The notes under the pieces were generated by a model. That model was given only the letters and a program-made list of their open reading frames with translations. It searched no databases and was not told where the DNA came from. 39,389 nt of DNA from Candidatus Dormiibacterota bacterium (lineage in GTDB: Bacteria > Chloroflexota > Dormibacteria > Aeolococcales > Bog-877): NCBI GenBank assembly GCA_027306655.1, contig DAHUZL010000111.1, positions 1 to 39,389 of the forward strand, read 5' to 3'. Each line of letters starts with the position of its first letter. Positions within the stretch are counted from its first letter, which is position 1. Both the position numbers and the translations under genes were made by a program. Below are positions 2,584 through 32,842 of this stretch, piece by piece.

Positions 2584-3573
2584 TCAGCTCGGGCCGGAGG
2601 CCCCGGCCTGCCGGACCGCGACGTGGCAGGCCACCGCCCGCCCGCCCGGCAGCGCCCCGAGGTCCGGATCCACCTCCCGGCACACCGGCTCCGCGAGGGG
2701 GCAACGGGGCTGGTAGGGGCAGCCCCGGTCGGGCTCGCGAAGGTCGACCGGGGCCCCGACCGACCGGCCCCGCCGGCGCTCGGCGTCGACCCCAGGGTCC
2801 GGCACCGGCACCGCGGCGGCCAGCGCCTCGGTGTAGGGGTGGAGAGGCCGGTCGAGGACGGCGTCGTAGGGGCCGGCCTCCACCACCTTGCCCAGGTACA
2901 TCACCAGGATCCGGTCGCTGAGGTGGCGAATCATGCTGACGTCGTGACTGATGAACACGTAGGCGAGGCCGAGCCGGTCCTGCATCCCGACGAGGAGATT
3001 GAGCAGCTCGGCCCGCACCGACACGTCCAGGGCGGAGGTGGGTTCGTCGAGGACCAGGACCCCGGGCTGGACCGCCAGGGCCCGGGCGACCGCCACCCGC
3101 TGGGCCTGGCCGCCGGAGAGCTCATGGGGGTAGCGGTCCGCGAACCGTGTTCCCAACGCCACCATCTCGAGGAGCTCCGTCACCCGCTGCCGTCGGCCGT
3201 CCGCCCCCTCCCCGAGGCGATGGACCTGGAGGACCTCCGCCAGGGTTCGCCCGACGGTGCGACGCGGGTCGAGCGAGGAGAAGGGGTCCTGGAACACGAG
3301 CTGGATCCGCCGGGCCAGCTGGAGGCGGGCGTCGCCGGCGCGGGTCGTGACCGGCACCCCATCCACCTCGGCGCCGCCCCGGCTGGGCGCCTCGAGGCCG
3401 ACGAGGAGCCGGGCCAGGGTGGACTTGCCGCAGCCACTCTCGCCGACGATGCCCAGGGTTCCTCCCGAGGGCACCTCCAGGGAGACCCCTCGGAGCGCCC
3501 GCACCGGCGGTCGACCGCCGGTGCCGCGATAGGTCTTGACCAGGTCCCAGCCCCGGACCGCTACCCCTGCCAT
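2584..3573 (-). CDS. Peptide-type ABC transporter ATP-binding protein (DppF/OppF-like)
   Basis: A 329-residue ATPase, last gene of the leftward arm. It has Walker A GIVGESGCGKST, signature LSGGQAQRVAVARALA and Walker B VLVLDEPTSALD, followed by the C-terminal region typical of peptide importers, with HPYTEALAAAVP and the cysteine cluster CPYQPRCPLAEPVC. The start is set at ATG 3573 (MAGVAVRGWDLVKTYRG), which overlaps the end of the preceding ATPase gene by 13 bases; the track start at 3687 runs far into that gene. It should pair with the DppD-like ATPase to energise the two permeases encoded upstream. Given AnmK inside the same operon, muropeptide fragments or amino sugars are a plausible cargo. 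Confidence 0.9.
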   Translation of the reverse strand: MAGVAVRGWDLVKTYRGTGGRPPVRALRGVSLEVPSGGTLGIVGESGCGKSTLARLLVGLEAPSRGGAEVDGVPVTTRAGDARLQLARRIQLVFQDPFSSLDPRRTVGRTLAEVLQVHRLGEGADGRRQRVTELLEMVALGTRFADRYPHELSGGQAQRVAVARALAVQPGVLVLDEPTSALDVSVRAELLNLLVGMQDRLGLAYVFISHDVSMIRHLSDRILVMYLGKVVEAGPYDAVLDRPLHPYTEALAAAVPVPDPGVDAERRRGRSVGAPVDLREPDRGCPYQPRCPLAEPVCREVDPDLGALPGGRAVACHVAVRQAGASGPS

Positions 3574-4541
3574 CGGTCCCGAGGCTTCCAGCAGGCGGAC
3601 GCTCGTCCGGGCCCCCGATCCAGGAGGTCCGGCTCCGCTACCCGGCACTCCTGGTCGCCCTGGGGGCAGCGGGGGAGATAGGGACACCCGGACCCGAGGC
3701 GGGCCGGGTCGGGGGGGGATCCCGGGATCTGACGCAGGGTGGCCCGATGTGCCGTCCCCGGGCGCGGGAGCGAGGCGAGCAGGGCGGCCGTGTACGGGTG
3801 CTGGGGGCGCGCGAAGAGGTCCGGGGTCGAGGCGTGCTCGACCACGCGGCCGGCGTACATCACCGCCACCCGGTCGACCAGCCGGGCCACCACCCCGAGG
3901 TCGTGGGTCACCCAGACGACGGCCATTCGGTTCTGGGCCTGCAGCTCGCCCACCAGGCTGAGGATCTGCTCCTGCACGGTCACGTCCAGGGCCGTGGTCG
4001 GCTCATCGGCGATGAGGACCTCGGGCTGGGTGGACAGGGCCATCGCGATCATGACCCGCTGGAGCATGCCCCCCGAGAGCTCGTGGGGGAACGCGCCCTC
4101 GACCCGGGCGGCGTCGCGCAGCCCGACCTGGGACAGGACCTCCCGGGTCCGCTCGCGGGCCCGCCGACGGTCGACGCCATGGGCCACCAGGGTCTCGACG
4201 ATCTGGGTGCGCACCCGAAGGAGCGGATTGAGCGAGCTCATCGGGTCCTGGTAGATCATGGCGATCCGGGCCCCCCGCACCCGCCGGAGGTGCGGCTCGT
4301 CGAGATCGAGGAGCTCCACCCCACCGAGACGGACGCTGCCCCCGAGCACCCGCAGGGCGGGGGTGGGCAGGAGGCCGAGGACGGCCAGCATCGAGAGCGT
4401 CTTGCCGGACCCGCTCTCGCCGACGATGCCGACCTTCTCACCGCCGTCGACGTCGAGATCGACCCCGCGGACGATCTCCACCGGGACGCCGCGTCCGACG
4501 CCGACCCGCAGCCCTCGGATGGTGAGGAGAGGGTGCGCCAT
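3561..4541 (-). CDS. Peptide-type ABC transporter ATP-binding protein (DppD/OppD-like)
   Basis: A 326-residue ATPase with Walker A GIVGESGSGKTLS, signature LSGGMLQRVMIAMAL, Walker B VLIADEPTTALD, and the peptide-importer C-terminus HPYTAALLASLPRP plus GCPYLPRCPQGDQEC. The N-terminus MAHPLLTIRGLRVGVGRG fits ATG 4541, which overlaps the TAA stop of anmK by one base (TAATG), a classic reinitiation arrangement; the track's ATG 4547 adds two residues. It forms the ATPase heterodimer with the downstream DppF-like gene. In peptide importers the two ATPases normally follow the permeases directly; here anmK is inserted between them. Confidence 0.9.
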   Translation of the reverse strand: MAHPLLTIRGLRVGVGRGVPVEIVRGVDLDVDGGEKVGIVGESGSGKTLSMLAVLGLLPTPALRVLGGSVRLGGVELLDLDEPHLRRVRGARIAMIYQDPMSSLNPLLRVRTQIVETLVAHGVDRRRARERTREVLSQVGLRDAARVEGAFPHELSGGMLQRVMIAMALSTQPEVLIADEPTTALDVTVQEQILSLVGELQAQNRMAVVWVTHDLGVVARLVDRVAVMYAGRVVEHASTPDLFARPQHPYTAALLASLPRPGTAHRATLRQIPGSPPDPARLGSGCPYLPRCPQGDQECRVAEPDLLDRGPGRASACWKPRDRWQG

Positions 4542-5764
4542 TAGCATCCCCCGCCCGCAGGGAGAGGCGTGCGGACCACCAGCCGTCGCGGCGGGCGGCC
4601 CCCTCCGGTGAGCGGCAGCGGGCGGGTGCCGGGGGTGACGGCGCCCAGGACCGTCGGGTGGCGCGCACCGGTGCAGGAGGGCAGGGTCCCGGCCCAGCCA
4701 TGAACGGTGAGGTACCCGATCACGGCCATGAGGAGGGCCTCCTTGGCCGCCTCGTCGACGCCGAGGGAGTCAAGACGCTCCAGCGACACTCCCGGGAGGT
4801 GTCGGCTGAGGGCCGCCATCAGGGTGGGATTGCGCGTGCCCCCGCCCGAGACGACGAGCCGCTCCACCCCGTGTCGGACAAGGGCGTCGGCCACCGTGCG
4901 TGCGGTGAGCTCGGTCAGGGTCGCGAGGAGGTCGTCCGGGGCCAGCCGTCGACCGCCGAGGTGCTGCTGCACGTGGCCGAGGTGGAAGTGCTCCTTCCCG
5001 GTCGACTTGGGCGGGGGCGCTGCGTAGTACGGGTCGTGCAGGAGGGACGCGAGGAGCTCGGCGTCGACGCTCCCGCGAGCGGCGCCGCGACCGTCCTCGT
5101 CGCGGTCGACGGCGCCGGCCGCGAGCCAGCCTGCAGCAGCGTCGATGAGCGCGTTGGCGGGGCCGATGTCGAAGGCGACGGGGTCGCGGACCGGCCCCAC
5201 CACGGTGACGTTCGCGATTCCGCCCAGGTTGAGCGCCCCGGTCACCCGGGACGGGTGGGAGCCGAAAAGGAGGACGTCGAGGAGGCTGGCCAGCGGGGCC
5301 CCCTGGCCGCCCGCGGCGATGTCCCGGATGCGGACGTCACTGACGACGGTGGCCCCGGTGCGCTCGGCGATCCAGGCAGCCTGGCCGAGCTGGAGCGTGC
5401 CCAGGGCGCGGCCACCGTCGACCCAGTGGTAGACGGTCTGGCCGTGGCTGCACACGAGGTCGGGCCGACCGCCAGGGTGGCGGTGGACGAGGTCAGCGGC
5501 CACCCCGGCGAAGCACTGGCCGACCCGGGCGTCCAGCGCACAGAGGGCGGCCGCCGTTGTCCGCGCCGGTGGCAGGACCGCCAGCAGGGCATCGCGGACG
5601 GCCGTCGGGTAGGGCACGGACATATGTCCTCTGAGGTCCGCCACCAGTCGGGTGCCGGCCCGGCTCAGCTCCACCAGCACGGCCTCGATCGCGTCGTGCG
5701 AGGTGCCCGAGATCATTCCGATGGTGCGGAGCGGCCGCCCTGCTCCAGCGGTCTGGGCGCTCAC
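4541..5764 (-). CDS. anmK: Anhydro-N-acetylmuramic acid kinase
   Basis: A 407-residue kinase that converts 1,6-anhydro-MurNAc with ATP and water to MurNAc-6-phosphate in the cytoplasm. Family landmarks in order: IGMISGTSHDAIEAVLVEL near the N-terminus, SHGQTVYHW, GTLQLGQAAWIAERTG, RDIAAGGQGAPL, LNLGGIANVTVV, FDIGPANALID, DPYYAAPPPKSTGKEHF and VVSGGGTRNPTLM. The first motif reads D-A-x-E where E. coli has D-G-x-D; from memory, SGTSHDAI also occurs in actinobacterial homologues, so this looks like a lineage variant rather than damage. Start and stop overlap both neighbours (ATGA with the permease, TAATG with the ATPase), so it is an integral cistron of the transporter operon. Its product is the substrate of the MurQ domain encoded on the divergent arm. 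Confidence 0.92.
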   Translation of the reverse strand: MSAQTAGAGRPLRTIGMISGTSHDAIEAVLVELSRAGTRLVADLRGHMSVPYPTAVRDALLAVLPPARTTAAALCALDARVGQCFAGVAADLVHRHPGGRPDLVCSHGQTVYHWVDGGRALGTLQLGQAAWIAERTGATVVSDVRIRDIAAGGQGAPLASLLDVLLFGSHPSRVTGALNLGGIANVTVVGPVRDPVAFDIGPANALIDAAAGWLAAGAVDRDEDGRGAARGSVDAELLASLLHDPYYAAPPPKSTGKEHFHLGHVQQHLGGRRLAPDDLLATLTELTARTVADALVRHGVERLVVSGGGTRNPTLMAALSRHLPGVSLERLDSLGVDEAAKEALLMAVIGYLTVHGWAGTLPSCTGARHPTVLGAVTPGTRPLPLTGGGRPPRRLVVRTPLPAGGGC

Positions 5765-6663
5765 CGGGTCCGACTCCGGGGATCGGCGGCGTCGCGCAGG
5801 CCGTCACCCAGGAAGTTGAAGCCGATCACGGCGAGGACGATCGCCAGCGAGGGCCCGACCAGCGTCCACCAGGCCACTCCAGCCAGGCTGCTCGACTGGC
5901 TCACCATCTCGCCCAGCGACGCGGTCGGAGGCGGCGGGCCCAGACCGAGGAAGCTGAGGCCGGCCTCGGCCAGGATCGCCCAGGCGAAGGCGAGGCTCGT
6001 CTGCACCGCCACCGCGCCGCCGACATTGGGGAGGATGTGGCCGAAGAGGAGCCGCCGCCGGGAGAAGCCGAGGACGCGCCCGGCCCGGATGAAGTCCGCC
6101 TCGCGCAGGGCCAGGACCGGCCCCCGCACCACCCGCACGAAGATGGGGACGTAGCCGACCCCGATGGCGAGGGCCGAGTCGATCACGCTGGCCCCGAGGG
6201 AGGTGACGATGGCGAGGGCGAGGAGGATGGCGGGGATGGCGAAGATGATGTCCGAGCCCCGCATGATCAGGGCCTCCGGCCACCGTCCCAAGAGCCCGGC
6301 GGTGATCCCTCCGAGCGTGCCCACCACCGCCGCGATCGCCACCGCGATGCCGGCGATCTCGAGCGACACCCCCATCCCCTGGAGGACGAGGGAGAACACG
6401 TCTCGGCCGAACTGGTCGGTTCCGAAGAGGTGGGGCGGCGACGGCCCCCGAAGCACCGCGCTCGAGCTCTGGACCCCGGGGTTCTCCGGCGTGAGACCGA
6501 CCCCGCCCAGGATCCCGGCCAGGCTGACGACTCCGACCAGGACGAGCCCGACCCGTCCGCTCCGGCTGCGCCAGAGCGTGCGCAGCCAGCCCGCCCGGCG
6601 GCGCTCCAGCCCGACCTCCGCGGCGTCGGGATGCCCGAGCAGGCCGCCGCCCACGGCCGTCAT
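5761..6663 (-). CDS. Peptide-type ABC transporter permease (DppC/OppC-like)
   Basis: A 300-residue inner-membrane permease. It has an N-terminal membrane segment (VGLVLVGVVSLAGILGGVGL), the OppC-family region LFGTDQFGRDVFS, and a BPD_transp_1 domain. The cytoplasmic EAA loop is ALREADFIRAGRVLGFSRRRLLFGHILPN, where the ATPases dock. ATG 6663 overlaps the stop of the DppB-like gene (ATGA), and its stop overlaps the anmK start in the same way. Confidence 0.92.
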   Translation of the reverse strand: MTAVGGGLLGHPDAAEVGLERRRAGWLRTLWRSRSGRVGLVLVGVVSLAGILGGVGLTPENPGVQSSSAVLRGPSPPHLFGTDQFGRDVFSLVLQGMGVSLEIAGIAVAIAAVVGTLGGITAGLLGRWPEALIMRGSDIIFAIPAILLALAIVTSLGASVIDSALAIGVGYVPIFVRVVRGPVLALREADFIRAGRVLGFSRRRLLFGHILPNVGGAVAVQTSLAFAWAILAEAGLSFLGLGPPPPTASLGEMVSQSSSLAGVAWWTLVGPSLAIVLAVIGFNFLGDGLRDAADPRSRTR

Positions 6664-7616
6664 CGAGCCCGGGTCCGCGGGTCGATGACGGTGTAGAGGA
6701 TGTCGGTCAGCATGTTGACGACGACGAAGGCGGCGGCGAAGAGAAGGGTCACACTCTGCACCACCGGGAAGTCACGGTTGGCGATCGATGTGACCAGGAG
6801 CCGCCCCAGCCCGGGAAGGACGAAGATCTGCTCGACGATGACCGTGCCGCCCAGCAGGTAGCCGAGCTGGATCCCGGTCATGGTCACGATCGGGATGGAG
6901 CTGTTGAGGAAGAGGTGGCGCCAGGACACCGTCCGAGGCGCCAGGCCCTTGCCCCTCGCGGTTCGGACGAAGCCCTGACCGCTCACCTCCAGGATGGCGG
7001 CCCGGGTCGTCCGCATGATCGCGGCCCCGATGCCGAGGCTGAGGGCGAGGGCGGGGAAGATGATCTGCTGCAGGTTCAGCCAGGGGTTCTGGAAGAATCC
7101 GGCAAAAGACTGGGAGGACGGAAAGTAGTGGAGGACCGAGGCGAGCAGGGTGACGATGCCGGTGCCGAGGACGAAGCTGGGCACCCCCAACCCCACCACC
7201 GCCACCCCCTGGCCGACCGAGTCGGGTAGCCGCCCGGGATGAAGGGCGCCCAGCATGCCCAGGCCAACGCCGATGAGGAGTCCGAGGACAATCGCCACCA
7301 GGGCCAGCTCGACCGTGACGGGCAGAGCCGCCCCGATCAGGGTCGCCACCGGCTCCCGCGAGGCGAGGGACACGCCCAGGTTGCCGGTGAGGACGGCGAC
7401 CAACCAGGAGACGAACTGCTGGACGGCTGGCTGTCCCACTCCGTAGTAGCGATCCAGCGCTGCCAGCTGCGCGTGGCTCAGAAGCCCGGCGCTCACCCCG
7501 AGGGAGGCGGTGACCGCATTGCCGGGAAGCAGGCGGAGGATGACGAAGATGACGACCGATACCCCCAGCAGGGTGATGACCATGCTGAGGAGGCGCCGGG
7601 CGACCCCGAGCAGCAA
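6660..7616 (-). CDS. Peptide-type ABC transporter permease (DppB/OppB-like)
   Basis: A 318-residue permease. The N-terminal segment LLSMVITLLGVSVVIFVILRLLPGN is the DppB/OppB signature, followed by a periplasmic stretch containing DRYYGVGQPAVQQFVSWL, further membrane helices and the EAA-loop region SGQGFVRTARGKGLAPRTVSWRHLFLNS. It ends with YTVIDPRTR, typical of the family. It is separated from the binding-protein gene by 70 bases that contain a very strong hairpin, whereas all later genes of the arm overlap, so its expression may be set lower than that of the binding protein. Confidence 0.92.
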   Translation of the reverse strand: MLLGVARRLLSMVITLLGVSVVIFVILRLLPGNAVTASLGVSAGLLSHAQLAALDRYYGVGQPAVQQFVSWLVAVLTGNLGVSLASREPVATLIGAALPVTVELALVAIVLGLLIGVGLGMLGALHPGRLPDSVGQGVAVVGLGVPSFVLGTGIVTLLASVLHYFPSSQSFAGFFQNPWLNLQQIIFPALALSLGIGAAIMRTTRAAILEVSGQGFVRTARGKGLAPRTVSWRHLFLNSSIPIVTMTGIQLGYLLGGTVIVEQIFVLPGLGRLLVTSIANRDFPVVQSVTLLFAAAFVVVNMLTDILYTVIDPRTRAR

Positions 7617-7686: not shown

Positions 7687-9252
7687 CTATGAGACGGTCG
7701 TCGAGCTGAGCGCGCGCAGGGAGGTCGAGGTGCTGGGCGAGAGGCTGAACCCGTGCACGCCGGGAGCCAGCACCGCGTAGTCGAAGCTGTCGAAGAGCCA
7801 GATCCAGACCGCGTTGCCGGTCAGCGTGGAGGACAGCTGGCTCCAGATCCGTGACCGCGTCACCGCCGCCGCGGCCTCGTCGCCCTGGACCAGGAGCCGC
7901 TGAAGGGCGGTCGAGCTGTAGCCCGCGGGAACCCCGAGGTTGGCGCCGGGTCCGAAGTACCGCCCGTACATCGTGTAGGGGTCGGGATCGGCGCCATTCT
8001 CGGCGAAAGCGGCCTGGAAGTCACCCTTGAGCCAGTCCTGGATGTAGGCGTCGCCCGCCAGGTTCTGAATGCTCATCTTGATCCCCACCCGGGCCAGCTC
8101 CAGCTGGACCGCGATCGCCTGGGCGCTGCTGGTGGGGTCGAGGTCGGTGGAGGTGATGGCGGTGAAGCTGAACCCGCTCGGGTCGCCGGCGGCCGAGAGG
8201 TAGCGCCGAGCCTGGGCGAGGTCAGGGGTCGCGCAGATCGCCGACACCGGCTTGGAGGCGTAGGGACCGAGGGGCACGGGCCCGACCACCCGGCCCTGGC
8301 CGAAGACGGAGTCGCCCAGCACCTGGCTCCGGTTGACGGCGCAGGCGATGGCCCGCCGGTTGTTCACATTCGCCAGCGGTCCGTGGTGGTCCTGCAGCAT
8401 GAGCGCGCGATAGGAGAGGTCCAGCACCCGGTCCACGTGGAAGGATGAGGGCAGATGGTCGGCCACCTGGGGCTGGGTGAGCAGGCCCAGCTGGACCGTG
8501 TTCGCCTGCAGCGCCGAGGCGATCGACTGCTCCGACGCGATGGTCTTGATCTCGATCCGCGCCAGCGACACCCGGCCGCCCCAGTAGTGGGGATTGCGCT
8601 TGACCACGAAGGAGTTGCCGGGGCTCCAGCTGACGAACTGGAAGGGCCCGGTGCCGTCCGGCCTGGTCGCGATCGAGCCGCTGGCGATCGCCTTCGCGGG
8701 CAGCATGGCCAGGTTCATCGACGTGAGCCCGTAGAGGAGGGACACGTCGGGACGGCTCAGGATGAGCTTCACCGTGTACGGGCCCTCCGCCACCACCTGC
8801 TTCATCGCCGCCAGGTAGGAGGCGGCGGCATCTCCCGTCTTGGGATTGACCACCCGGTTCAGCGAGGCGACCACGTCGGCTGAGGTGAAGGCGGAGCCGT
8901 CGTCGAAGGCGACGCCCTGGCGGAGCTGGAAGGTGATGGAGCGATTTCCCGGGCCGAACTGCCAGCTGGTCGCCAGGTTGGGGACGATCTGCAGCTGGCG
9001 GCTGAGCTGGACCAGGGTGTCGTAGATCAGGCCGAGCGACTGGAAGTCAAGGAAGTTCGTGACCACATCGGGGTCCAGCTTCTGGACGCTCGAGGTGTTG
9101 GCCACGACGAAGGTGGAGCCGGCGCTGCGGGGGTGGGCGGCCGGGTGGCGCTGGGCCGCGGTCGTCGGCACCCCCACCAGAAACAGTCCGCCCAGCCCGA
9201 TTGCGGCCGCGACCGCGGCCATGGGTCGAAGTCGTCGCAGTGGACGGTGCAT
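7687..9252 (-). CDS. Extracellular solute-binding protein family 5 (peptide/nickel/muropeptide type)
   Basis: A 521-residue binding protein of the DppA/OppA/MppA superfamily, first gene of the leftward arm. The N-terminus (MHRPLRRLRPMAAVAAAIGLGGLFLVGVPTTAAQ) is a Sec signal peptide with an A-x-A-like cleavage site and no lipobox cysteine. The mature part shows the SBP_bac_5 pattern: LIYDTLVQLS, NLATSWQFG, ITFQLRQGVAFDDGSAFTSADVVASLNRV, GTGPFQFVSW and NPHYWGG. A strong Shine-Dalgarno (GGGGGAGGG on the minus strand) precedes ATG 9252. It should deliver ligand to the DppBC-like permease. AnmK within the operon and the MurQ-NagA arm opposite make a murein fragment the likeliest cargo; an ordinary oligopeptide is the alternative. 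Confidence 0.88.
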   Translation of the reverse strand: MHRPLRRLRPMAAVAAAIGLGGLFLVGVPTTAAQRHPAAHPRSAGSTFVVANTSSVQKLDPDVVTNFLDFQSLGLIYDTLVQLSRQLQIVPNLATSWQFGPGNRSITFQLRQGVAFDDGSAFTSADVVASLNRVVNPKTGDAAASYLAAMKQVVAEGPYTVKLILSRPDVSLLYGLTSMNLAMLPAKAIASGSIATRPDGTGPFQFVSWSPGNSFVVKRNPHYWGGRVSLARIEIKTIASEQSIASALQANTVQLGLLTQPQVADHLPSSFHVDRVLDLSYRALMLQDHHGPLANVNNRRAIACAVNRSQVLGDSVFGQGRVVGPVPLGPYASKPVSAICATPDLAQARRYLSAAGDPSGFSFTAITSTDLDPTSSAQAIAVQLELARVGIKMSIQNLAGDAYIQDWLKGDFQAAFAENGADPDPYTMYGRYFGPGANLGVPAGYSSTALQRLLVQGDEAAAAVTRSRIWSQLSSTLTGNAVWIWLFDSFDYAVLAPGVHGFSLSPSTSTSLRALSSTTVS

Positions 9253-9293
9253 GGGCCCTCCCCCAAATCGACTGGTCAGCCAGGTTCCGAGCG

Positions 9294-9324
9294 ACTCTAC
9301 AACTTCTTCATGGTACGGTCAACT
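9294..9324 (-). promoter_or_regulatory. Promoter and operator of the leftward transporter/anmK arm
   Basis: On the minus strand TTGACC (9322-9317), a 17-base spacer and TAGAGT (9299-9294) form a good promoter, giving a leader of about 35 bases to ATG 9252. The block AGTTGACCGTACCATGA covering the -35 and spacer (9324-9308) recurs, with one mismatch, in the opposite promoter at 9409-9425. It is the best candidate binding site for the GntR-GNAT regulator. Confidence 0.65.
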
Positions 9325-9408
9325 CCGACCCGCCCACAGGGGAATCGGCCGCTCATCCCCGAGATCACCGGTGCACCCTCTCGCTCCTCCAGGCAACCGA
9401 TGGGTCCC

Positions 9409-9439
9409 AGTTGACCGGACCATGATCTCTTGGTACTGT
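9409..9439 (+). promoter_or_regulatory. Promoter and operator of the rightward regulator/murQ-nagA arm
   Basis: TTGACC (9411-9416), 17-base spacer and TACTGT (9434-9439) form the rightward promoter, leaving a leader of about 44 bases before GTG 9490. AGTTGACCGGACCATGA (9409-9425) is the same block as in the leftward promoter, in the same position relative to its -35. The two copies form an inverted repeat across the divergent intergenic region, as expected for coordinate control of both arms and autoregulation. Confidence 0.65.
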
Positions 9440-9489
9440 GCCTCTCGGCCTCGGCGCTCGTGGGGGCGCCCGAAGCAGGGGAGGGGCAG

Positions 9490-10809
9490 GTGCGCGAGAC
9501 CGCCGGCCAGCCGAAGTATCGCCGGCTGCGCGACACCCTGACCGCGCTGGTCCGAGACCTGCCCGACGGGGCCGCCCTCCCCACCGAACGCGAGCTCTGC
9601 CAGACGTTCGCGGTGTCGCGGTCGACGGTTCGCCAGGCCCTCCACCAGCTCGAGGTCGAGCAGAAGGTGGTGCGTCGTCAGGGCAGGGGAACCTTCGCGG
9701 CCCGGCCCAAGGTCGAGCAACCGCTCGAACTCACCAGCCACACCGAGGACATGCAGGCCCGCGGCATGGTCCCCGGCTCCAAGCTGATCGACGTGAGGCG
9801 GGTCGCTGCCGAGGGCGAGCCGGCGGCGATGCTGGGGGTGGCGGTCGGATCGGAGCTGCTGCGAATCGAGCGCCTGCGCCTGGCCGACGGGGATCCAATG
9901 GCGATCGAGGTGCTCTTCGTCGACGGGGCCCGATTCGATGGGATCTCGGCCGCCCTGGGCGAGCACGCATCCTTCTATCAGCTGCTCCACGCCACCTATG
10001 GGGTTGAGCTGGCATCGGCCGAGGAGACCATCGAGGCGGTGGTCGCCGGGACCCGCGAGGCGGAGCTGCTGGGGTCGCGACCCGGCGCCCCCCTCCTCCT
10101 CCTCTCCCGCCGCACCCTCGACACGGCCGGCCGCCCGACCGAGTTCGTCCGCTCGCTCTACCGAGGCGACCGCGTCCGCTTCCGTACCAACCTGCGGCGC
10201 CCGCCGGGCGGCTCGGACCGGACCCCGGGGACCCTTCTCCGCGATGCCGTTCCCGCCGACGCCCCGGCCCTGGGCTCGGTGTTCATCGCGGCATGGAGGG
10301 AGGCCTACCCCGGGATCGTGGACGCCGCCATCCTGGCCGCCCTGGACCCGGACGAGGTCACCGATTGGCTCCAGAGCCTGCTCGACTCGGTCGGACGGAC
10401 GATGGTCGTGGCCGAGGATCCAGCCGGGCGGGTCGTGGGCTTCACCCGCTTCGGCGAGGATCCCGATGACCCGCGCCGGGGGCAGGTCTACGCCCTCTAC
10501 GTCCATCCGGGCGCCGCCCACCGGGGCATCGGGCACGCCCTGCTCGGACACGCCGTGGAGCGATTGTCCGCCGATCGTCCCGCGTCCGTGTCGCTCTGGG
10601 TGTTCGAGCGCAACCATCGGGCCCGTCGCCTCTACGCATCGCTGGGTTTCACCCCCGACGGTGCCCGCCGGATCGATCCGCGCTATCGGGCCGAAGAGGT
10701 CAGGCTGCTTCGGCCCTGGGACGGACGGCCTGCGATCCGGGAGCTGCCCCCCGCCCCTGCAGCCGTCGGCCTCCAGGCGATGGACGGGCCCCGACGGACG
10801 CACGGGTGA
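9490..10809 (+). CDS. GntR/HutC-type regulator (wHTH + UTRA) fused to a GNAT acetyltransferase
   Basis: A 439-residue, three-part protein. Residues 1-72 are a GntR winged helix (LPTERELCQTFAVSRSTVRQALHQLE, then VVRRQGRGTFAA). Residues about 90-230 are a UTRA ligand-binding domain of the HutC/DasR/NagR type (GSELLRIERLRLADGDPMAIE, ending in VEFVRSLYRGDR-like TEFVRSLYRGDRVRFR). Residues about 245-410 are a GNAT domain with motif A VYALYVHPGAAHRGIGHALLG and the C-terminal motif WVFERNHRARRLYASLGF. GTG 9490 is chosen because GGGGAGGGG lies just upstream and the GntR homology begins at once; TTG 9430 in the track lies within the promoter. UTRA regulators of amino-sugar genes usually sense phosphorylated amino sugars, the intermediates made by the neighbouring enzymes. 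The role of the GNAT part is unknown. Confidence 0.85.
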   Translation: MRETAGQPKYRRLRDTLTALVRDLPDGAALPTERELCQTFAVSRSTVRQALHQLEVEQKVVRRQGRGTFAARPKVEQPLELTSHTEDMQARGMVPGSKLIDVRRVAAEGEPAAMLGVAVGSELLRIERLRLADGDPMAIEVLFVDGARFDGISAALGEHASFYQLLHATYGVELASAEETIEAVVAGTREAELLGSRPGAPLLLLSRRTLDTAGRPTEFVRSLYRGDRVRFRTNLRRPPGGSDRTPGTLLRDAVPADAPALGSVFIAAWREAYPGIVDAAILAALDPDEVTDWLQSLLDSVGRTMVVAEDPAGRVVGFTRFGEDPDDPRRGQVYALYVHPGAAHRGIGHALLGHAVERLSADRPASVSLWVFERNHRARRLYASLGFTPDGARRIDPRYRAEEVRLLRPWDGRPAIRELPPAPAAVGLQAMDGPRRTHG

Positions 10810-10819
10810 TCCACGCGGG

Positions 10820-11920
10820 ATGAGGACCGCGGCCGGCTCCGGGTCTCAGCTGGAGTTGATCGAGGACGGCCCCCCGGGGCGACGATCCGGGCGGTTCCTG
10901 GGCGAGCTGGCCGGGGCGGTCGCCGCCGGACATCCCCCGAGCCTGCAGCTGGCGGTGGTGGGCCCGGCGGGGACGGCGATGCAGGCCTGGGGAGGGCTGG
11001 CCTGTGCGGTGGGCGATCCGACCCCGTCCACCCGCTCGACGCTCTATGACCTGGCCTCGCTGACCAAGGTGACCGTCACCGTTCCGCTCGCGGTCTGGCT
11101 GGAGCAGCGCGGCAGCTGGGCGCTCGACGACGCGGTGGCGAGGTGGGTCCCCCGCTTCCCTCGCACCGAGATCACCCTCCGCCATCTCCTCACCCACACC
11201 TCGGGGCTCCCCGCCCATCGACCCTTCTACCACCTCGGCCGGGGGCGTCCGACCGTGGAGCGGGCGCTGTTCGCCGAGGCGCGGTCGGCGGGTGCTCCGG
11301 GCCCGGTCCTCTACAGTGACCTGAACTTCATCCTCCTGGGATGGGCCGTGGCCCGCTGCGCCGGCACCCCTCTCGACCGCCTCACCGCCCTGCGCATCGC
11401 GGCGCCCCTGGGGATGACAACCGCCCGCTTCCGCCCGCCCGCGGGTCGGCGGACCGCGACCGCCGCCACCGAGCTGGACGGTGACCAGCGGCTGGAGCCG
11501 GGCCTCATCTGGGGGACGGTCCATGACGGCAACGCGGCGGCGCTGGGCGGGGTGGCGGGCCATGCCGGCCTCTTCGGCACCGCCTGGGACCTGGCCGCCT
11601 TCGCCCGGCCGCTGCTGGGCGGGCCGCCCCATCCACTGCTGAGCCCGTCGTCGATCGCGGCGATGTCCACGGCCCAGGCCGGCCGTCCGCCGGAGGTCCG
11701 AGGGCTGGGATGGCGGATCGGAGCGCCGGCCGAGTGGGGCCGGTGGCCTGCCTCCACCCTCTGGCACACCGGGTTCACCGGGACCTCGCTCCTGATCGCC
11801 CCCGCGGTCCCGGTCGCGGTCGCCCTTGTCAGCAACGGCGTCCACCCGCACCGGGCCCCGGCGGAGCAGGCGGCCCTCCGCGAGCACGTGCATCGCTGGG
11901 TGGCGCGGGCGTGGGGATGA
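10820..11920 (+). CDS. Beta-lactamase-fold serine hydrolase, AmiE/EstB-like
   Basis: A 366-residue serine hydrolase of the class C beta-lactamase family (PF00144 type). Catalytic motifs: S80-L-T-K83 (SxxK) in YDLASLTKV, Tyr165 in LYSDLNF (YxN-like), and H316-T-G in LWHTGFTG, replacing KTG. LLTHTSGLP and GTVHDGNAAALGGVAGHAGLF are typical of the family. In Bacillus subtilis a member of this family in the murQ operon, AmiE, is a MurNAc-L-alanine amidase, which suggests peptide removal from imported muropeptides. No signal peptide is visible, so it should act in the cytoplasm. It lies 10 bases after the regulator, and its stop overlaps the MurQ-NagA start (ATGA). A general esterase or D-aminopeptidase remains possible. 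Confidence 0.75.
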   Translation: MRTAAGSGSQLELIEDGPPGRRSGRFLGELAGAVAAGHPPSLQLAVVGPAGTAMQAWGGLACAVGDPTPSTRSTLYDLASLTKVTVTVPLAVWLEQRGSWALDDAVARWVPRFPRTEITLRHLLTHTSGLPAHRPFYHLGRGRPTVERALFAEARSAGAPGPVLYSDLNFILLGWAVARCAGTPLDRLTALRIAAPLGMTTARFRPPAGRRTATAATELDGDQRLEPGLIWGTVHDGNAAALGGVAGHAGLFGTAWDLAAFARPLLGGPPHPLLSPSSIAAMSTAQAGRPPEVRGLGWRIGAPAEWGRWPASTLWHTGFTGTSLLIAPAVPVAVALVSNGVHPHRAPAEQAALREHVHRWVARAWG

Positions 11921-14013
11921 GGGGACCGGCGGATTCCCCCGCCGGCCTGGTTGGGCTCGCGACCGAGCAGGTTCGGGACGACGTGGGCGACCTGGATACG
12001 CTGACGGTCGACGCCATCGTCGGCCTCATGTGCGCCGAGGCGAGGCGGGCGCCCGCGGCGGTGGCGGTGGCCGGGCCCGCGATCACCCGTGCCGTCGAGG
12101 CCGTCGTCCTCCGCCTCCAGGCGGGCGGGCGTCTCGTCTATGTCGGGGCGGGGACCGCGGGACGGCTCGGCATGCTCGACGCGGCCGAGGCGGGACCCAC
12201 CTTCAGCGCTCCGCCGGGGCAGGTGGTGGCCGTGCTGGCGGGGGGAGACGGCGCCGTCAGCGTGCCGGCCGAGCGGGCCGAGGACGATCGGGACGCGGGG
12301 TCCCGGGCGATGACGGAGCTCGGAATCGGCCCGGCCGATGCGGTGGTGGGGATCTCGGCCAGCGGTCGGACCCCGTACGTGGTGGCGGCGGTGGAGACCG
12401 CCAGGGGCGCCGGCGCCGTCACCGTGGGCCTTGCCTGCAACGTCGGGTCCCCGCTGGGGCAGGCGGCGGAGCTCGCGATCGAGGTGGCGGTGGGGCCCGA
12501 GGTCATCGGCGGGTCGACCCGGCTCAATGCCGGCACGGCGCAGAAGATCGTGCTCAACATCATCTCGACCGCCGCCATGGTCAGGCTCGGCAAGGTCCAC
12601 GGGACCCTGATGGTGGAGCTCCGTCCCACCAACCAGAAGCTACGCGACCGGGCGGTCCGGATCGTCGCCGCGGTCGCCGCGGTCAGTCTCTCCGAGGCGC
12701 GCGCGGCCCTGGGCCAGGCGATGTGGCAACCCAAGGTGGCCGCGGTGATGCTGGTCGGGAGGACGGACCGCGATCGGGCGCTGGCACTGCTGGCGGAGCG
12801 CAACGGTCGCCTGCGGCCGGTCCTCGACGCACTGTCCGCTCCGGCGGGGGCGAGGCCCGCCGCGGCTCCCGCCGTTCCGACGCAGCGCTCGCGGCGGCTG
12901 GGGGTGGGGGCGGCGGTGGTCGACGGCACCCTGGTCCGCGGCGACGTCGCCGTCCGTGCCGGACGGATCGTGGCGGTGGGGCTGCCCGGCTCGGGCCAGG
13001 ACCTGGCCATCCCTGGGCTGGTCGACCTCCAGGTGAACGGCTACGCCGGCGTCGACATCCTCGAGGCCGATCCCGACGCGCTCCGGTCCATGGGCGCGGC
13101 CCTGATCCGCGCCGGGGTCTTCGCCTACCTGCCCACCCTGGTCAGCGGCGAGGTGGCCCCGACGGTCGAAGCGATCCGCCGCATCACGCAGTACATCGAG
13201 CACCCCGGGCAGGGTGGGGGCCCGGTCGCCTCCCCGCTCGGCGTCCACCTGGAGGGGCCGTTCCTCGCCCCCGGGCGAGCCGGAGCCCACCGGCTCCGCC
13301 ACCTGCGCCCGCCCGACCCGGTCCTCCTCGCGGAGCTGCTGGGCGCGGGCCGGGTGAGCCTCCTCACCCTGGCGCCGGAGCTGCCGGGGGCGCTTGCGCT
13401 CATCGCCGACGCGGTGGCGCGGGGGGTGGTCGTCTCGCTCGGACACAGCGCGGCCACCGCTGAGGAGGCCCGGGCCGCCCACGCCGCTGGGGCCACCGCC
13501 GTCACCCACCTCTTCAATGGGATGCCCCCGCTGGCCTCGCGGTCACCGGGGCTGGCCGCGTCCGCGCTCCTTCTTCCCGGACTCACCCCCCAGGTCATCG
13601 CCGATGGGCTCCACGTCGCCGACGAGATGGTGCGCCTGGCATTCCAGGCCGCCCCCGGCCGCTGCACCCTGGTCAGCGATGCGATCGCGGCCGCCGGCGT
13701 GGGAGACGGCCCGTTCCGGCTCGGAGACCTCGACATCGAGGTGCGCGACGGGGTGGCCCGTCGGTCGGACGGGACACTGGCGGGGAGCGCCCTGGGACTC
13801 GCCACCGGGCTGGTCACCCTTCACCGCCTCGGCGTCAGCCTCACCGACTCCGTGGACGCGGCCACCCGGCGACCGGCTCAGCTGCTGGGTGAGCCTCGGG
13901 TCGGGCGTCTCATCCCGGGCGGTTCCGCGAACCTCATCGTGGTCGACGGGGCCCTGAGCCTCCGCCGGGTCCTGGCCGCTGGACGGGAGCTCGACCCGCC
14001 CGCGCCCCGCTGA
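11917..14013 (+). CDS. murQ-nagA: Fused N-acetylmuramic acid 6-phosphate etherase (MurQ) and N-acetylglucosamine-6-phosphate deacetylase (NagA)
   Basis: One 698-residue reading frame holding two complete enzymes. Residues about 12-305 are MurQ (SIS fold): YVGAGTAGRLGMLDAAEAGPTF with Glu91 (E. coli Glu83 position), PAERAEDD with Glu119 (Glu114 position), ISASGRTPYV and GGSTRLNAGTAQKIVLN. It splits MurNAc-6-P to GlcNAc-6-P and D-lactate. After an Ala/Pro-rich linker (about 307-325), residues 328-690 are NagA: IPGLVDLQVNGYAG, HLEGPFL with metal ligand Glu446, LGHSAAT (His510), THLFNGM (His531), IADGLH (His566) and LVSDAI (catalytic Asp588). It yields GlcN-6-P and acetate. Each half is near full family length and all catalytic residues checked are present. 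ATG 11917 overlaps the upstream stop; the track start at 11710 is an extension. Confidence 0.93.
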   Translation: MRGPADSPAGLVGLATEQVRDDVGDLDTLTVDAIVGLMCAEARRAPAAVAVAGPAITRAVEAVVLRLQAGGRLVYVGAGTAGRLGMLDAAEAGPTFSAPPGQVVAVLAGGDGAVSVPAERAEDDRDAGSRAMTELGIGPADAVVGISASGRTPYVVAAVETARGAGAVTVGLACNVGSPLGQAAELAIEVAVGPEVIGGSTRLNAGTAQKIVLNIISTAAMVRLGKVHGTLMVELRPTNQKLRDRAVRIVAAVAAVSLSEARAALGQAMWQPKVAAVMLVGRTDRDRALALLAERNGRLRPVLDALSAPAGARPAAAPAVPTQRSRRLGVGAAVVDGTLVRGDVAVRAGRIVAVGLPGSGQDLAIPGLVDLQVNGYAGVDILEADPDALRSMGAALIRAGVFAYLPTLVSGEVAPTVEAIRRITQYIEHPGQGGGPVASPLGVHLEGPFLAPGRAGAHRLRHLRPPDPVLLAELLGAGRVSLLTLAPELPGALALIADAVARGVVVSLGHSAATAEEARAAHAAGATAVTHLFNGMPPLASRSPGLAASALLLPGLTPQVIADGLHVADEMVRLAFQAAPGRCTLVSDAIAAAGVGDGPFRLGDLDIEVRDGVARRSDGTLAGSALGLATGLVTLHRLGVSLTDSVDAATRRPAQLLGEPRVGRLIPGGSANLIVVDGALSLRRVLAAGRELDPPAPR

Positions 14014-14193: not shown

Positions 14194-14472
14194 GTGACGC
14201 GGATTGGTGTGCGCGAACTGCGGCAGCACGCGAGCCGGTACCTCGACCTGGTCAAGGCAGGCGAGACGGTGGAGGTGTCTGAGCGAGGGGAGCTGGTCGC
14301 GCTGCTGGTCTCACCGCGTCCGGCGGTGGCGGCGCGCGATCGCCTGGTGGCCGCGGGTCGGCTGGCACCGGCCCCGGCTCGGTTCCAGCTACCGGCTCGC
14401 CGGGTCCGCCCGGACAGGGAGGAGACGGCGTCCGCGGTCCTCGACCGGCTGCGTGGAGAGCGGTTGGCGTGA
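14194..14472 (+). CDS. Phd/YefM-type antitoxin
   Basis: A 92-residue antitoxin starting MTRIGVRELRQHASRYLDLVKAGETVEVSERGELVALLV, the canonical Phd/YefM N-terminal DNA-binding fold. The C-terminal half (PAPARFQLPARRVRPDREETAS) is the disordered-looking region that would wrap the toxin. GTG 14194 follows TACACT by seven bases. The stop overlaps the toxin start by four bases (GTGA), as usual for vapBC-type modules. Confidence 0.88.
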   Translation: MTRIGVRELRQHASRYLDLVKAGETVEVSERGELVALLVSPRPAVAARDRLVAAGRLAPAPARFQLPARRVRPDREETASAVLDRLRGERLA

Positions 14473-14861
14473 TCTACCTCGACACCTCTGCGCTGGTGAA
14501 GCTCGTCTTCGAGGAAGCCGAGAGCGAGGCGTTGGAGCGGTGGCTGGTGGAGCGAGACGACTCGCCGAAGGTGACCAGCGAGCTCTCGACCATCGAGCTC
14601 CTTCGTGCGTGCCGCCGCGTCGACGAGGGGGCCGTGACGGCAGCACGGCAGGTCCTGGCCGGCCTTGACCTGCTCCCGATGACCGGCGAGCTCGTGGGAC
14701 AGGCGGCCTTGGTCGGCCCTGCCGAGCTGCGCAGCCTCGATGCCATCCACCTGGCAAGCGCCCTGATGTTGACCGGGACCCTCGACGCCTTCGTCGCGTA
14801 CGACACCAGGCTGGGCACGGCCGCTCGCGACGCCGGCCTCGAGGTCGCGGCACCCGCGTGA
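14469..14861 (+). CDS. vapC: VapC-type PIN-domain toxin (ribonuclease)
   Basis: A 130-residue PIN-domain protein of normal length. The acidic metal-binding residues are present: Asp5 in MIYLDTSALVKLV, Glu43 in STIELLRA, Asp91 in SLDAIHLASALML and Asp112 in AYDTRL. PIN toxins cleave tRNA or rRNA when freed from their antitoxin. GTG 14469 overlaps the antitoxin stop. The module appears intact, unlike the second one near 20.4 kb. Confidence 0.88.
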   Translation: MIYLDTSALVKLVFEEAESEALERWLVERDDSPKVTSELSTIELLRACRRVDEGAVTAARQVLAGLDLLPMTGELVGQAALVGPAELRSLDAIHLASALMLTGTLDAFVAYDTRLGTAARDAGLEVAAPA

Positions 14862-20137: not shown

Positions 20138-20441
20138 TCACTGGGCGGCCAGTCCCTCGCCGCGGGCGGCAGCCTCGAGGGTGGCGTCGAAGGTGAGCAG
20201 CACGGTCGAGGGGACGGTGTCAGCCAGGGTGGTGGTGGCGGCGAGGTGCCAGAGGTCGGCGGAGGTGTTCCAGCACGGCGGTGCTCTCGGCGAATGTGAG
20301 CGAAGCGAGGAGATGAGCCGCCTCCCGGCTTCGCCACTCGCGCGCCACACCCTGTCGGGGATCGTCGGTGAGGGCGGCGAGGACCATCGAGCTGTCCCAA
20401 TAGACGGCAGCGGGAGCCTCAGCGGCCGTTGCGATCCTCAT
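20138..20441 (-). pseudogene. Decayed VapC-type PIN toxin (frameshift and internal deletion)
   Basis: The frame starting at ATG 20441 gives MRIATAAEAPAAVYWDSSMVLAAL then TFAESTAVLEHL, a PIN-domain N-terminal half with the first aspartate and the acidic residue of the second motif. A different frame then continues NTSADLWHLAATTTLADT and STVLLTFDATLEAAARGEGLAAQ, the PIN C-terminal motifs. The frames meet near 20265. Only about 100 codons separate start and stop, against about 130 in the family, so roughly 30-40 residues between the motifs are also missing. The start overlaps the antitoxin gene by 23 bases, as in a normal module. An expressed toxin is unlikely. Confidence 0.75.
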
Positions 20442-20721
20442 CGAGCGTCCTCCGAGCGTGCCCAGGGGGCAGGACGCCGGTCGGGGCCAGCTCGGCGGCC
20501 CGTCGCGGCAGCGGACCGATCAGCCCGCGCCGCTCGAGGTCCTCCAGGCCGGAGCGGTGAGCAGGGACCGGGACGGGTGAGAGCTGGGCCACGGCCCGCC
20601 CGCGATCCGTGATCACGACGGAGTTGCCGCTCTCGACCAGGCGCACCAGCTTGGACCGTTGCGCCTTCGCCTCACGGATTCCGACGCGCGCGTCCCCCGT
20701 CGTCGGACTGGATGTGGTCAT
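20419..20721 (-). CDS. Phd/YefM-type antitoxin, partner of the decayed toxin
   Basis: A 100-residue protein. VGIREAKAQRSKLVRLVESGNSVVITDRGRAVAQLSPV is the Phd/YefM fold, followed by a charged, probably disordered tail ending GHARRTLDEDRNGR. ATG 20721 is preferred; the track ORF from 20850 adds a low-complexity Pro/Gly/Arg extension before it. The antitoxin frame is intact although its toxin is broken, which could leave it as a solitary regulator or cross-antitoxin. Confidence 0.75.
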   Translation of the reverse strand: MTTSSPTTGDARVGIREAKAQRSKLVRLVESGNSVVITDRGRAVAQLSPVPVPAHRSGLEDLERRGLIGPLPRRAAELAPTGVLPPGHARRTLDEDRNGR

Positions 20722-20900
20722 GATCGCTACATGACACGAGCGACCACGCGGTGTGGTTCCGCGCCCGCTGGAGCGGTCCCGACGTGCCGACTGCCCCGCT
20801 GGCTCGCCACCCGGCGGGGCACCGGGGTGTGCGACGGCAGCCCCCGGCATGCCGTCGGCGAGGGGTCCGGTTCACTGGCCCTGAGGCCGCGCCCATGCCC

Positions 20901-25840: not shown

Positions 25841-26158
25841 ATGCGCGAGCTCCTCGACGACATCGACCGTTGGCGGGGGGAGGGCCGCAGGGTCGCCCTC
25901 TGCCGGGTGGTCGACCTTGAGGGCTCCGGTCCGCGCCTGCCGGGGGCGGCGATGGCGGTCAGCGACCGGGGCGAGGTGTCGGGCTCGGTCTCGGGCGGCT
26001 GCGTCGAGGGGGCGGTGGTGGAGGAGGCGCTCGCCATGCTGCAGGGCGACCAGGGCGCCCGCATGGTCCGCTACGGGATCAGCGATGACGACGCCTTCGC
26101 GGTCGGGCTCACCTGCGGTGGCACCATCCACCTGCTCGTCGCCCCCCTCGACTGGTGA
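25841..26158 (+). CDS. XdhC/CoxI-type maturation factor, N-terminal domain only
   Basis: A 105-residue protein equal to the XdhC_CoxI N-terminal domain: RVALCRVVDLEGSGPRLPGAAMAV, GSVSGGCVEGAVVEEALAML and AFAVGLTCGGTIHLLV. XdhC proteins insert or sulfurate the molybdenum cofactor of xanthine-dehydrogenase-type hydroxylases. The stop overlaps the next start (GTGA at 26155-26158), so the pair works as a unit. Its client is almost certainly the CoxL-type enzyme encoded on the opposite strand nearby. Confidence 0.85.
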   Translation: MRELLDDIDRWRGEGRRVALCRVVDLEGSGPRLPGAAMAVSDRGEVSGSVSGGCVEGAVVEEALAMLQGDQGARMVRYGISDDDAFAVGLTCGGTIHLLVAPLDW

Positions 26159-26937
26159 GCGGCCTCTACCAGGCCCTGAGCGGGGCGCTGCGCCTGGGTC
26201 ACCCGGCGGCGCTGGCGACCACGGTGGAGGGGCCGCGGGTGGGCGCCACCCTCCTGGTCCGCCCCGGCGCCGATCCCATCGGCAGCCTCGGCGATGACGA
26301 GCTGGACCGGGTCGTGAGCCGCGACGCCCTCGCGGCGCTGGCGGTGGGACGGACCGGGATCCGCCACTACGGGCCGCACGGCGAGGCACGGCAGGAGGGG
26401 GTGACGGTCTTCGTGGACGCGTTCGCCCCGCCGCCGCGGATGGTGATCTTCGGGGCGGTGGACTTCACCGCGGCCTTGGTGCGGGTGGCGGTGCTGCTCG
26501 GCTACCGGGTCACCGTGTGCGACCCCCGCTCCGCCTTCGCCACCCCGCATCGATTCCCCCAGGCCAACGAGGTGGTGGTGGAGTGGCCCGAGCGCCACCT
26601 GGAGCGGGTCGGCGCCGGGCTCGGGCCGCGCGATGCGGTCTGCGTTCTCACCCACGATCCCAAGTTCGACGTTCCGGCGATCGTGGCCGCGCTGCGGACC
26701 GGAGTCGGGTACCTGGGCGCGATGGGGTCGCGCCGCACCCACGCCCGCCGGCTGGAGGCGCTCCACGCGCTGGGGGTGACCGACCGGGACCTGGAGCGGC
26801 TGATGGCACCGATCGGGCTCGACCTCGGGGCCCGCACTCCGGAGGAGACCGCGGTGGCCATCGCCGCCGAGGTCATCGCCCGGGGGGCGGGCCGACCGGT
26901 TCCGGGCCTGCGCGACCGGAGCGGGCCGATCCACTGA
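26155..26937 (+). CDS. XdhC/CoxF-type maturation factor
   Basis: A 260-residue protein. Residues 1-95 look like a diverged second copy of the XdhC_CoxI domain. Residues about 98-240 are the Rossmann-like XdhC_C domain (MVIFGAVDFTAALVRVAVLLGYRVTVCDPR, CVLTHDPKFDVPAI, GYLGAMGSRRTHARRLEAL). The Rossmann turn reads GAVDFT rather than GxGxxx. It is coupled to the upstream CoxI-like gene. Its last 65 bases overlap the end of coxE on the other strand, so the two transcripts share complementary 3' ends. Confidence 0.85.
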   Translation: MSGLYQALSGALRLGHPAALATTVEGPRVGATLLVRPGADPIGSLGDDELDRVVSRDALAALAVGRTGIRHYGPHGEARQEGVTVFVDAFAPPPRMVIFGAVDFTAALVRVAVLLGYRVTVCDPRSAFATPHRFPQANEVVVEWPERHLERVGAGLGPRDAVCVLTHDPKFDVPAIVAALRTGVGYLGAMGSRRTHARRLEALHALGVTDRDLERLMAPIGLDLGARTPEETAVAIAAEVIARGAGRPVPGLRDRSGPIH

Positions 26938-28079
26938 GGCTGGCTTGCGCGAGCGGGCGGCGGTGGCGCGCCCGCTCCACCACCCCCACCAGCTGCTCCA
27001 GGCTGTCCAGGGTGTGCACCGGGTGGAGGAGGTCCACGTGCGGCAGCGCCGCCCGCATCCCCTGGGTGACCGGGGCGAAGTCGGGGTCGCCCATCAGCGG
27101 GTTGCACCACACGAGCCGCCAGCTGGACCGGCGCAGGCGCTGGAGGGCTGCCGCCAGCCGCTCCGGGCTCCCGGTCTCCCAGCCGTCGCTGATCACCAGC
27201 GTGACCGGCCCGTGGCTCAGCACCCGTGGGCCCCAGCGGATCAGCAGCTCGTGGAGGGCGTCCCCGATCCGGGTGCCCCCGGCCCAGCCCGGCGCTGCGC
27301 CGCCGACGGCGGCGAGCGCCCGGCTCGGGTCACGATCGCGGAGCTGGTGGGTGACCCGGTTCAGGCGCGTACTGAAGACGAAGGTCTCCACGCCGCCGGG
27401 CCCCTGCTGGAGGGCGTGGCAGAACCGGAGCAGGATCCGGGTGTACCGCTCCATCGACCCGCTGGTGTCGCACAGGACCAGCAGCGGACGGCGGCGCACG
27501 CTCGGGCGCGCCCGGACCAGCCGCAGCCACTCGCCCCCCGATCGCAGCGCCAGCCGCTGGCTTCCCGGCCAGTCGATGCGGGAGCCGTGGGGCCCGCGGC
27601 GCCGGCGGCGGCCGGGCCGCTCCGGGGCGCAGGTGGCGAGGGCGGCCACCGCCCCCGCCAGCTCGGTCAGCTCGGCCGGGCTGCAGTGGCCGAAGTCGAC
27701 CGCCCGGAGGCCAGGGTCCGCGCTCGGCTCGAGCCGGTGCTCGCGCCGGGCCCGTGGGGGCAGGTCGTCCCGGGGACCCCCCTCCCCGCCCACCGCCGGG
27801 TGGAGGCGGACACCGCCGTCCGTCGGGACGCCGGACGCCGGCGGGGCGGAGGGCGGGCGGCCCCACCACGTCGCGAACACCCGGTCGAAGAGGTCGAGGT
27901 CGGCGTGGGCATGGCACCAGCAGCAGCGCAGGGCACAGGCCAGCCTCCCCGGATCGCCCACCCCCACGGCCGCCGCCGCGCGCAACCCCAGGAGGGTGTC
28001 TCCCGGCCCGACCGCGATCCCCGCCTTCCGGAGGCGGCGGGCGAGTACGACCAGCTGTCCGGCGAGCCCTCCGCCCCCG

Positions 28080-28093
<14 letters not shown>
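26873..28093 (-). CDS. coxE: CoxE-like von Willebrand factor A domain protein
   Basis: A 406-residue protein, last gene of the cox operon. The C-terminal half is a VWA domain with the MIDAS motif in LLVLCDTSGSMERYTRILL, followed by RIGDALHELL and SDGWETGSPERL. The N-terminal half begins LVVLARRLRKAGIAVGPGDTLLGL, typical of CoxE. CoxE works with the CoxD ATPase in cofactor maturation of CO dehydrogenase-type enzymes. GTG 28093 overlaps the end of coxD by 14 bases. A low-complexity Pro/Gly/Arg insert lies before the VWA domain. Confidence 0.85.
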
Positions 28094-28985
<892 letters not shown>

Positions 28986-29006
28986 CGCCGCCCAGGCCGC
29001 CGCCCC

Positions 29007-32161: not shown

Positions 32162-32165
32162 GGCC

Positions 32166-32696
<531 letters not shown>

Positions 32697-32783
32697 GCCG
32701 TCCCTCCGCGGTGAGCCCACGACCGATCCCGCCGCTCCGGTCCCGGCCGACCCGGGGCCGTGAGCCGCCCATCCTCCGGGCCG

Positions 32784-32812
32784 AGTATCGCGCCCGCGAA
32801 GCCGGTCCGCAA
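32784..32812 (-). promoter_or_regulatory. Putative promoter of the coxSLMDE operon
   Basis: TTGCGG (32812-32807), 17 bases and GATACT (32789-32784) on the minus strand, about 88 bases before ATG 32696. The -10 is identical to that proposed for the S9 peptidase gene. Confidence 0.4.
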
Positions 32813-32842
32813 GCGGGGGTCGTGGCGGCGGCCCCGTCACCC

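Follow-up and report, generated by a model that had tools for sequence, protein, structure and literature searches.

A GntR-UTRA regulator with a C-terminal GNAT domain in a muropeptide-salvage divergon of a Candidatus Dormiibacterota bacterium

The stretch of DNA analysed here (the window; 39,389 nucleotides) contains, at 9490-10809 on the forward strand, a single frame of 439 codons in which a GntR winged helix, a UTRA sensor and a complete GNAT acetyltransferase follow one another. Frame, Pfam matches and coding signal together define this 439-aa GntR-UTRA-GNAT fusion protein. Its winged-helix DNA-binding domain spans residues 10-69 (9517-9696, +; PF00392, 2.5e-16, 59.5 bits against a cutoff of 27), and its UTRA effector domain, with a DasR/NagR-type sugar-phosphate pocket, residues 90-230 (9757-10179, +; PF07702 over its full length, 4.6e-39, 133.9 bits against a cutoff of 23.8). 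The GNAT domain occupies about residues 248-396 (10231-10677, +), as delimited by Pfam (Acetyltransf_1, residues 288-387, 6e-16), an AlphaFold model, a match to the solved structure 1wk4 and a residue table. All Pfam matches of the protein lie well over the curated cut-offs, far beyond chance. The frame is open from its GTG start, with no stop at the junction, and an in-frame TTG at 9430 would extend it upstream; because this TTG falls within the -10 region predicted for the fusion gene's promoter, and because the GTG at 9490 is preceded by a ribosome-binding site, AGGGGAGGGG, 9490 is the better start. An earlier note, made from the letters alone, had placed a wHTH, a UTRA domain and a complete GNAT in one frame and had quoted the motifs HRGIGHA and RNHRARRLYASLGF; the open frame, the Pfam matches and the confident GNAT model bear this out, and both motifs are present.

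A Gly/Pro-rich linker of about ten residues (PPGGSDRTPG; 10201-10230, +), read from the sequence and free of start codons, connects the final strand of UTRA to the first strand of the GNAT. Since no in-frame ATG, GTG or TTG occurs in residues 184-264, separate translation of the GNAT is implausible. GC3, at 0.90 for the regulator part and 0.85 for the GNAT part, is what coding DNA should show here. The genome is a fragmented draft (233 contigs, 92% complete, 3% contamination) in which no second copy was found, and the join might on these grounds be suspected of being an assembly error. We regard this as very improbable, since frame, linker and coding signal run on continuously, the surrounding operon is intact, and such an error would need to have deleted a stop as well as a start codon while staying in frame. 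The fusion is real in this assembly.

By its predicted gene products, the surrounding locus is a complete muropeptide-salvage divergon, with DppABCDF and AnmK on one side and the regulator, a hydrolase and MurQ-NagA on the other. The reverse strand encodes a DppA-type extracellular solute-binding protein of family 5 (7687-9252; Pfam PF00496), DppB-type (6660-7616) and DppC-type (5761-6663) permeases recognized by profile matches, the anhydro-N-acetylmuramic acid kinase AnmK (4541-5764; NCBIfam PRK09585.2-6, above cutoff), and DppD-type (3561-4547) and DppF-type (2584-3687) ATPases, both with Pfam ABC_tran and oligo_HPY matches. On the forward strand, the fusion gene is followed by a beta-lactamase-fold serine hydrolase resembling PBP4B/AmpH (10820-11920; Pfam PF00144, 1.4e-47; the best NCBIfam match, PBP4B, is below cutoff) and by a frame encoding MurNAc-6-P etherase (MurQ) and GlcNAc-6-P deacetylase (NagA), identified by profile matches and motifs (11917-14013), the MurQ part of which retains its sugar-phosphate and glutamate motifs. 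Here these consecutive pathway enzymes share one continuous frame; in the class relatives that were examined, each has a frame of its own. Directly downstream lies a PhdYefM antitoxin and PIN toxin pair, VapBC-like (14194-14858, +). Elsewhere on the contig there is a second PhdYefM-like frame (20422-20850, -), and XdhC, a molybdopterin-binding large subunit and a 2Fe-2S small subunit at 26155-32840 suggest an aerobic CO dehydrogenase or a xanthine-dehydrogenase-type cluster.

With a gene set of this kind, muropeptides can be taken up and anhydroMurNAc phosphorylated; removal of lactate and deacetylation then yield GlcN-6-P. The earlier proposal that the neighbouring enzymes lead to GlcN-6-P thus agrees with the presence of AnmK, MurQ and NagA. 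A search for NagB of the TIGR00502 type, which did detect it in eight control genomes, had no hit in this 92%-complete genome, so the GlcN-6-P may instead be passed to GlmM. Of 110 class genomes, just one other has AnmK (G089, 44% identity), without the rest of the cluster nearby, and no strong MurQ match was found in the family's other genomes; for these reasons the salvage cluster may have been acquired.

The two divergent operons are separated by a gap of 237 bases, within which two nearly mirror-image promoters (9294-9439) carry a common 24-nt sequence over their -35 boxes. On the fusion gene's side the predicted promoter (TTGACC, 17 nt, TACTGT; 9411-9439, +) was read from the sequence and falls under the promoter-scan threshold; on the other side the promoter scan predicts a divergent promoter for the dpp-anmK operon (TTGACC, 17 nt, TAGAGT; 9294-9322, -). 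The overlying arms, GGGTCCCAGTTGACCGGACCATGA (9402-9425, +) and GGGTCGGAGTTGACCGTACCATGA (9308-9331, -), share the form GGGTCnnAGTTGACCGkACCATGA and emerged from a repeated-site comparison and a genome search, the first of them found only here in the genome. Allowing up to one mismatch, their 15-base core has no further occurrence in the genome. The twin sequences are therefore a genome-unique candidate operator, and their arrangement fits one regulator acting on both promoters. The canonical dre operator, TGGTCTAGACCA, has no match in 9253-9489 at up to 3 mismatches; in its place stands this other repeated, genome-unique site.

Among solved structures, the best relative of the regulator half is DasR (E 4e-63; 48% identity over 236 aligned residues). 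The DasR structure paper lists 14 residues as contacting GlcN-6-P or GlcNAc-6-P (PMC4918961), and alignment to DasR shows 12 of these to be identical in the fusion protein. In DasR numbering they comprise the phosphate ligands Thr99, Arg142, Arg144, Ser175 and Tyr177 and the sugar-contacting residues Ser97, Glu154, Glu193, Arg221, Glu232, Val234 and Tyr238, so that the two arginines, the Thr and the Ser that bind the phosphate and the Tyr that stacks on the sugar are all kept. The two that differ are Tyr98, replaced by His, and Leu176, replaced by Phe at the N-terminus of helix E5. The regulator half is thus a GntR-UTRA protein of the DasR/NagR type that very probably senses amino-sugar phosphates set free in cell-wall recycling. 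Of all functional assignments for the fusion protein, that of an amino-sugar phosphate as inducer is the one for which the sequence argues most strongly, and release from the operator by the sugar phosphate is predicted. Since a canonical dre operator is lacking, we class the regulator by sequence as a DasR/NagR-like member of GntR/HutC rather than as a DasR orthologue.

The set of homologues compared with the regulator half numbered 40 and was drawn from this genome, its class and phylum, three species-genome records and one plasmid. None of the 40 carries a GNAT, and each chain stops no more than about 36 residues after the UTRA domain. The unfused orthologues of the class lie near MurQ and NagA; those closest from other classes of the phylum adjoin Dpp genes (L118, L119) or belong to a cluster of SIS, NagA, beta-lactamase-fold, AnmK and GH20 genes (L120). 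As unfused orthologues share such clusters, a cluster of this kind is where the regulator belongs, and the GNAT is what has been added. The kept DasR ligand residues and these orthologues in like clusters together uphold the description of the regulator, in the earlier note, as an amino-sugar-type GntR/UTRA repressor in a cluster that generates GlcN-6-P.

The search for further GntR-UTRA-GNAT architectures that the same note had proposed turned up no other fusion, whether in 110 class genomes or 400 phylum genomes, in two further classes (158 and 29 genomes, at strict thresholds and for an architecture of which no positive control exists), in 84,980 species genomes (by 8-residue patterns, whose reach is close relatives only), or in plasmids, phages and viral contigs. 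Four homologues whose open frames are long (L031, L035-L037) were ruled out as fusions, their extra length not being GNAT, and the small gene after the L120 regulator was ruled out as a separate GNAT, having no Pfam match. Three plasmid matches covered at least 80% of the query: in Caballeronia sp. SBC2 and Streptomyces pSVH1 the two parts are separate genes, and the third, Caballeronia sp. SBC1, has the same query range and identity as the other Caballeronia match. On pSVH1 (L062 1465-2781) a GntR-UTRA gene is followed directly by a GNAT gene on the same strand, and on the Caballeronia plasmid pSBC2-1 (L061 8893-10397) a GNAT gene of the window's type stands just upstream of a GntR-UTRA gene, again on the same strand. 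No report of a GntR-UTRA-GNAT protein was found in the literature searched. The fusion is a singleton, and its function is therefore without support from conservation.

Modelled separately, the GNAT half gave a confident structure (pLDDT 86, pTM 0.80; above 90 for 151 of 200 residues), whereas the full-length model is reliable for the regulator half only. In a structural search with the GNAT model, 993 of 999 chains scored a Z of 8 or more; the best matches were all GNATs, and acetyl-CoA-binding members of the fold were matched at Z above 18. The closest solved structure is TTHA1209 (1wk4/2cy2; E 1.9e-15; Z 23.7, rmsd 1.7 A over 167 residues), and profile searches add PaiA-like and phosphinothricin-type acetyltransferases as near relatives. 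The acetyl-CoA pyrophosphate loop (Q/R-x-x-G-x-G/A) reads AHRGIG, with Gly346 and Gly348 kept and its first position Ala rather than Q/R, as in three homologues. The residue table shows that the general-acid Tyr382 and the motif-B Asn375 are retained. At the beta-4 position, where 13 of 16 homologues have Glu and 3 of 16 have Gln, the fusion protein has Gln332; in Gcn5 the Glu at this position serves as general base, and its replacement by Gln may lower activity. Sequence and model together predict a GNAT half that binds acetyl-CoA and is probably catalytic. A mixed alignment of regulators and GNATs proved misaligned and was dropped.

The same features bear on the reading, which we consider unlikely, that the GNAT is an acetyl-CoA gauge, in which binding beside the C-terminal UTRA strand would shift the DNA-binding heads and so integrate amino-sugar supply with carbon status. 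An intact acetyl-CoA loop combined with loss of the beta-4 Glu would suit such a role, as would the short linker and the geometry of DNA-bound NagR, whose heads and C-terminal strand betaE7 share one direction (PMC4333415), which would bring an appended domain near the heads. However, Tyr382 and Asn375 are kept, as expected of an enzyme, Gln is also found in 3 of the 16 homologues, and the full-length model, being unreliable in the GNAT half, predicts no interface.

The earlier note had drawn an analogy to GNA1, which acetylates GlcN-6-P, and had suggested that the protein could modify its own inducer. The sugar and phosphate ligands of GNA1 include Asp121, Tyr151, Lys152 and Glu156 (PMC4680927), and in a remote alignment to the human enzyme (20% identity, four ligands compared) they correspond to Ala, Ala, Ser and Trp in the fusion protein. 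With all four alignable ligand residues replaced, and with TTHA1209, PaiA-like and phosphinothricin-type enzymes as the nearest relatives, we rejected a GNA1-type activity. Acetylation of GlcN-6-P likewise goes unsupported, because these ligands are replaced and because the reaction would undo the NagA step of the same operon. The missing GNA1 and RmNag rows in the structural match list were given no evidential weight.

The nearest free-standing GNATs (37-39% identity) have SnoaL, globin and MFS genes as neighbours, not amino-sugar genes, and their context therefore gives no hint of an amino-sugar substrate. Such generic relatives, together with the occurrence of the fusion in one genome only and the presence of a second fusion, MurQ-NagA, in the same operon, might point to an accidental, idle or unrelated join, in which a generic detoxifying GNAT is carried along by the regulator but has nothing to do with its signal. 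Against this stand the key residues kept in both halves and the coding-type GC3, unexpected after a long idle period, and we judge such a join improbable.

We give about as little credence to a third possibility, namely that the GNAT acetylates proteins, either the repressor itself or pathway enzymes, and is switched by bound sugar phosphate. In the fungal protein Ngs1, an amino-sugar sensor region controls an attached GNAT that drives transcription (PMC5063960), and the fusion protein has only four lysines (9, 59, 74 and 98), of which two lie within the DNA-binding domain and one in the stretch that links it to UTRA. Yet beyond the fold there is no sequence link to known protein acetyltransferases, RimI matches being far under cutoff, and a single sequence offers no conserved target.

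Starting from the domain order, the conserved sugar-phosphate pocket, the cluster content, the twin sites and the intact acetyl-CoA loop, all visible in the DNA itself, we infer how repression, operator, inducer, catalysis and substrate might fit together. The explanation we prefer, to which we give somewhat less than an even chance as a whole, is a DasR/NagR-type repressor of the salvage divergon that gained a GNAT by gene fusion and acts through it on an amine of the pathway. Like DasR and NagR, it would act as a dimer: bound to the twin arms that overlie the -35 boxes of the divergent promoters, it would keep the importer-AnmK operon and its own operon (hydrolase, MurQ-NagA) switched off until GlcNAc-6-P or GlcN-6-P, arising from MurQ and NagA, occupies the UTRA pocket and the repressor is released. 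Homology lends good support to this part, a dimeric DasR-like repressor released by either sugar phosphate. The added GNAT would bind acetyl-CoA and most likely still be an acetyltransferase, so that expression of the repressor would also supply a repair or detoxifying acetylation. Its substrate may be an amine of the same pathway other than GlcN-6-P, either free glucosamine or a de-N-acetylated muropeptide, a suggestion made by analogy and with the balance leaning against it. We favour such a substrate because of two precedents, RmNag of Rhizomucor miehei, a GNAT fused to an amino-sugar protein that acts on glucosamine, and a Clostridium acetobutylicum GNAT linked to amino-sugar or cell-wall salvage that acetylates glucosamine (PMC4680927). 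RmNag has a tandem GNAT, whereas Pfam and the model show a single GNAT domain here, and the match of RmNag (4zm6) to the window's GNAT is weak (E 0.71).

Neither GntR/HutC repressors nor GNATs are novel in themselves; what is new is an architectural variant of this repressor family that combines the two in a single polypeptide encoded by a cell-wall salvage operon, and it is seen in one draft genome. Like the GntR/HutC regulators DasR of Streptomyces coelicolor and NagR/YvoA of Bacillus subtilis, the fusion protein combines a GntR wHTH with a UTRA domain and its pocket, and adjoins amino-sugar catabolic genes. Unlike them, it has a C-terminal GNAT, no canonical dre at its promoter, and a cluster for muropeptide import and salvage. 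TTHA1209 of Thermus thermophilus, an uncharacterised protein, comes closest to the GNAT half among solved structures but is free-standing and has Glu where the fusion protein has Gln332. The pSVH1 pair resembles the fusion in the order GntR-UTRA then GNAT, but consists of two separate genes, and its GNAT is only distantly similar. HTH-GNAT bifunctional proteins such as MarR-GNAT fusions also unite a DNA-binding regulator and a GNAT in one chain; they differ in regulator family and have no UTRA sensor.

The closest parallel in working principle is Ngs1 of Candida albicans, a GlcNAc sensor with a GNAT that acts on histones at promoters (PMC5063960). Both proteins join an amino-sugar-sensing region and a GNAT in one chain that controls catabolic genes. 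The Ngs1 sensor, however, is of the non-homologous GH3 type, whereas Pfam gave no GH3 match in the fusion protein, whose sensor is the UTRA domain, and the likeness is therefore not one of descent. It is rather unlikely, though worth considering, that a single repressor reads an amino-sugar phosphate through UTRA and acetyl-CoA through GNAT and sets salvage by acetylating itself, a pathway amine or a partner, as a bacterial counterpart of fungal Ngs1. The fusion protein is small enough for simple assays, and should its GNAT prove active and coupled to the sensor, the regulation of cell-wall recycling would be directly connected to carbon status or amine repair, in an arrangement of amino-sugar-sensing regulator and acetyltransferase in one chain that is known, by analogy, from Ngs1 in fungi.
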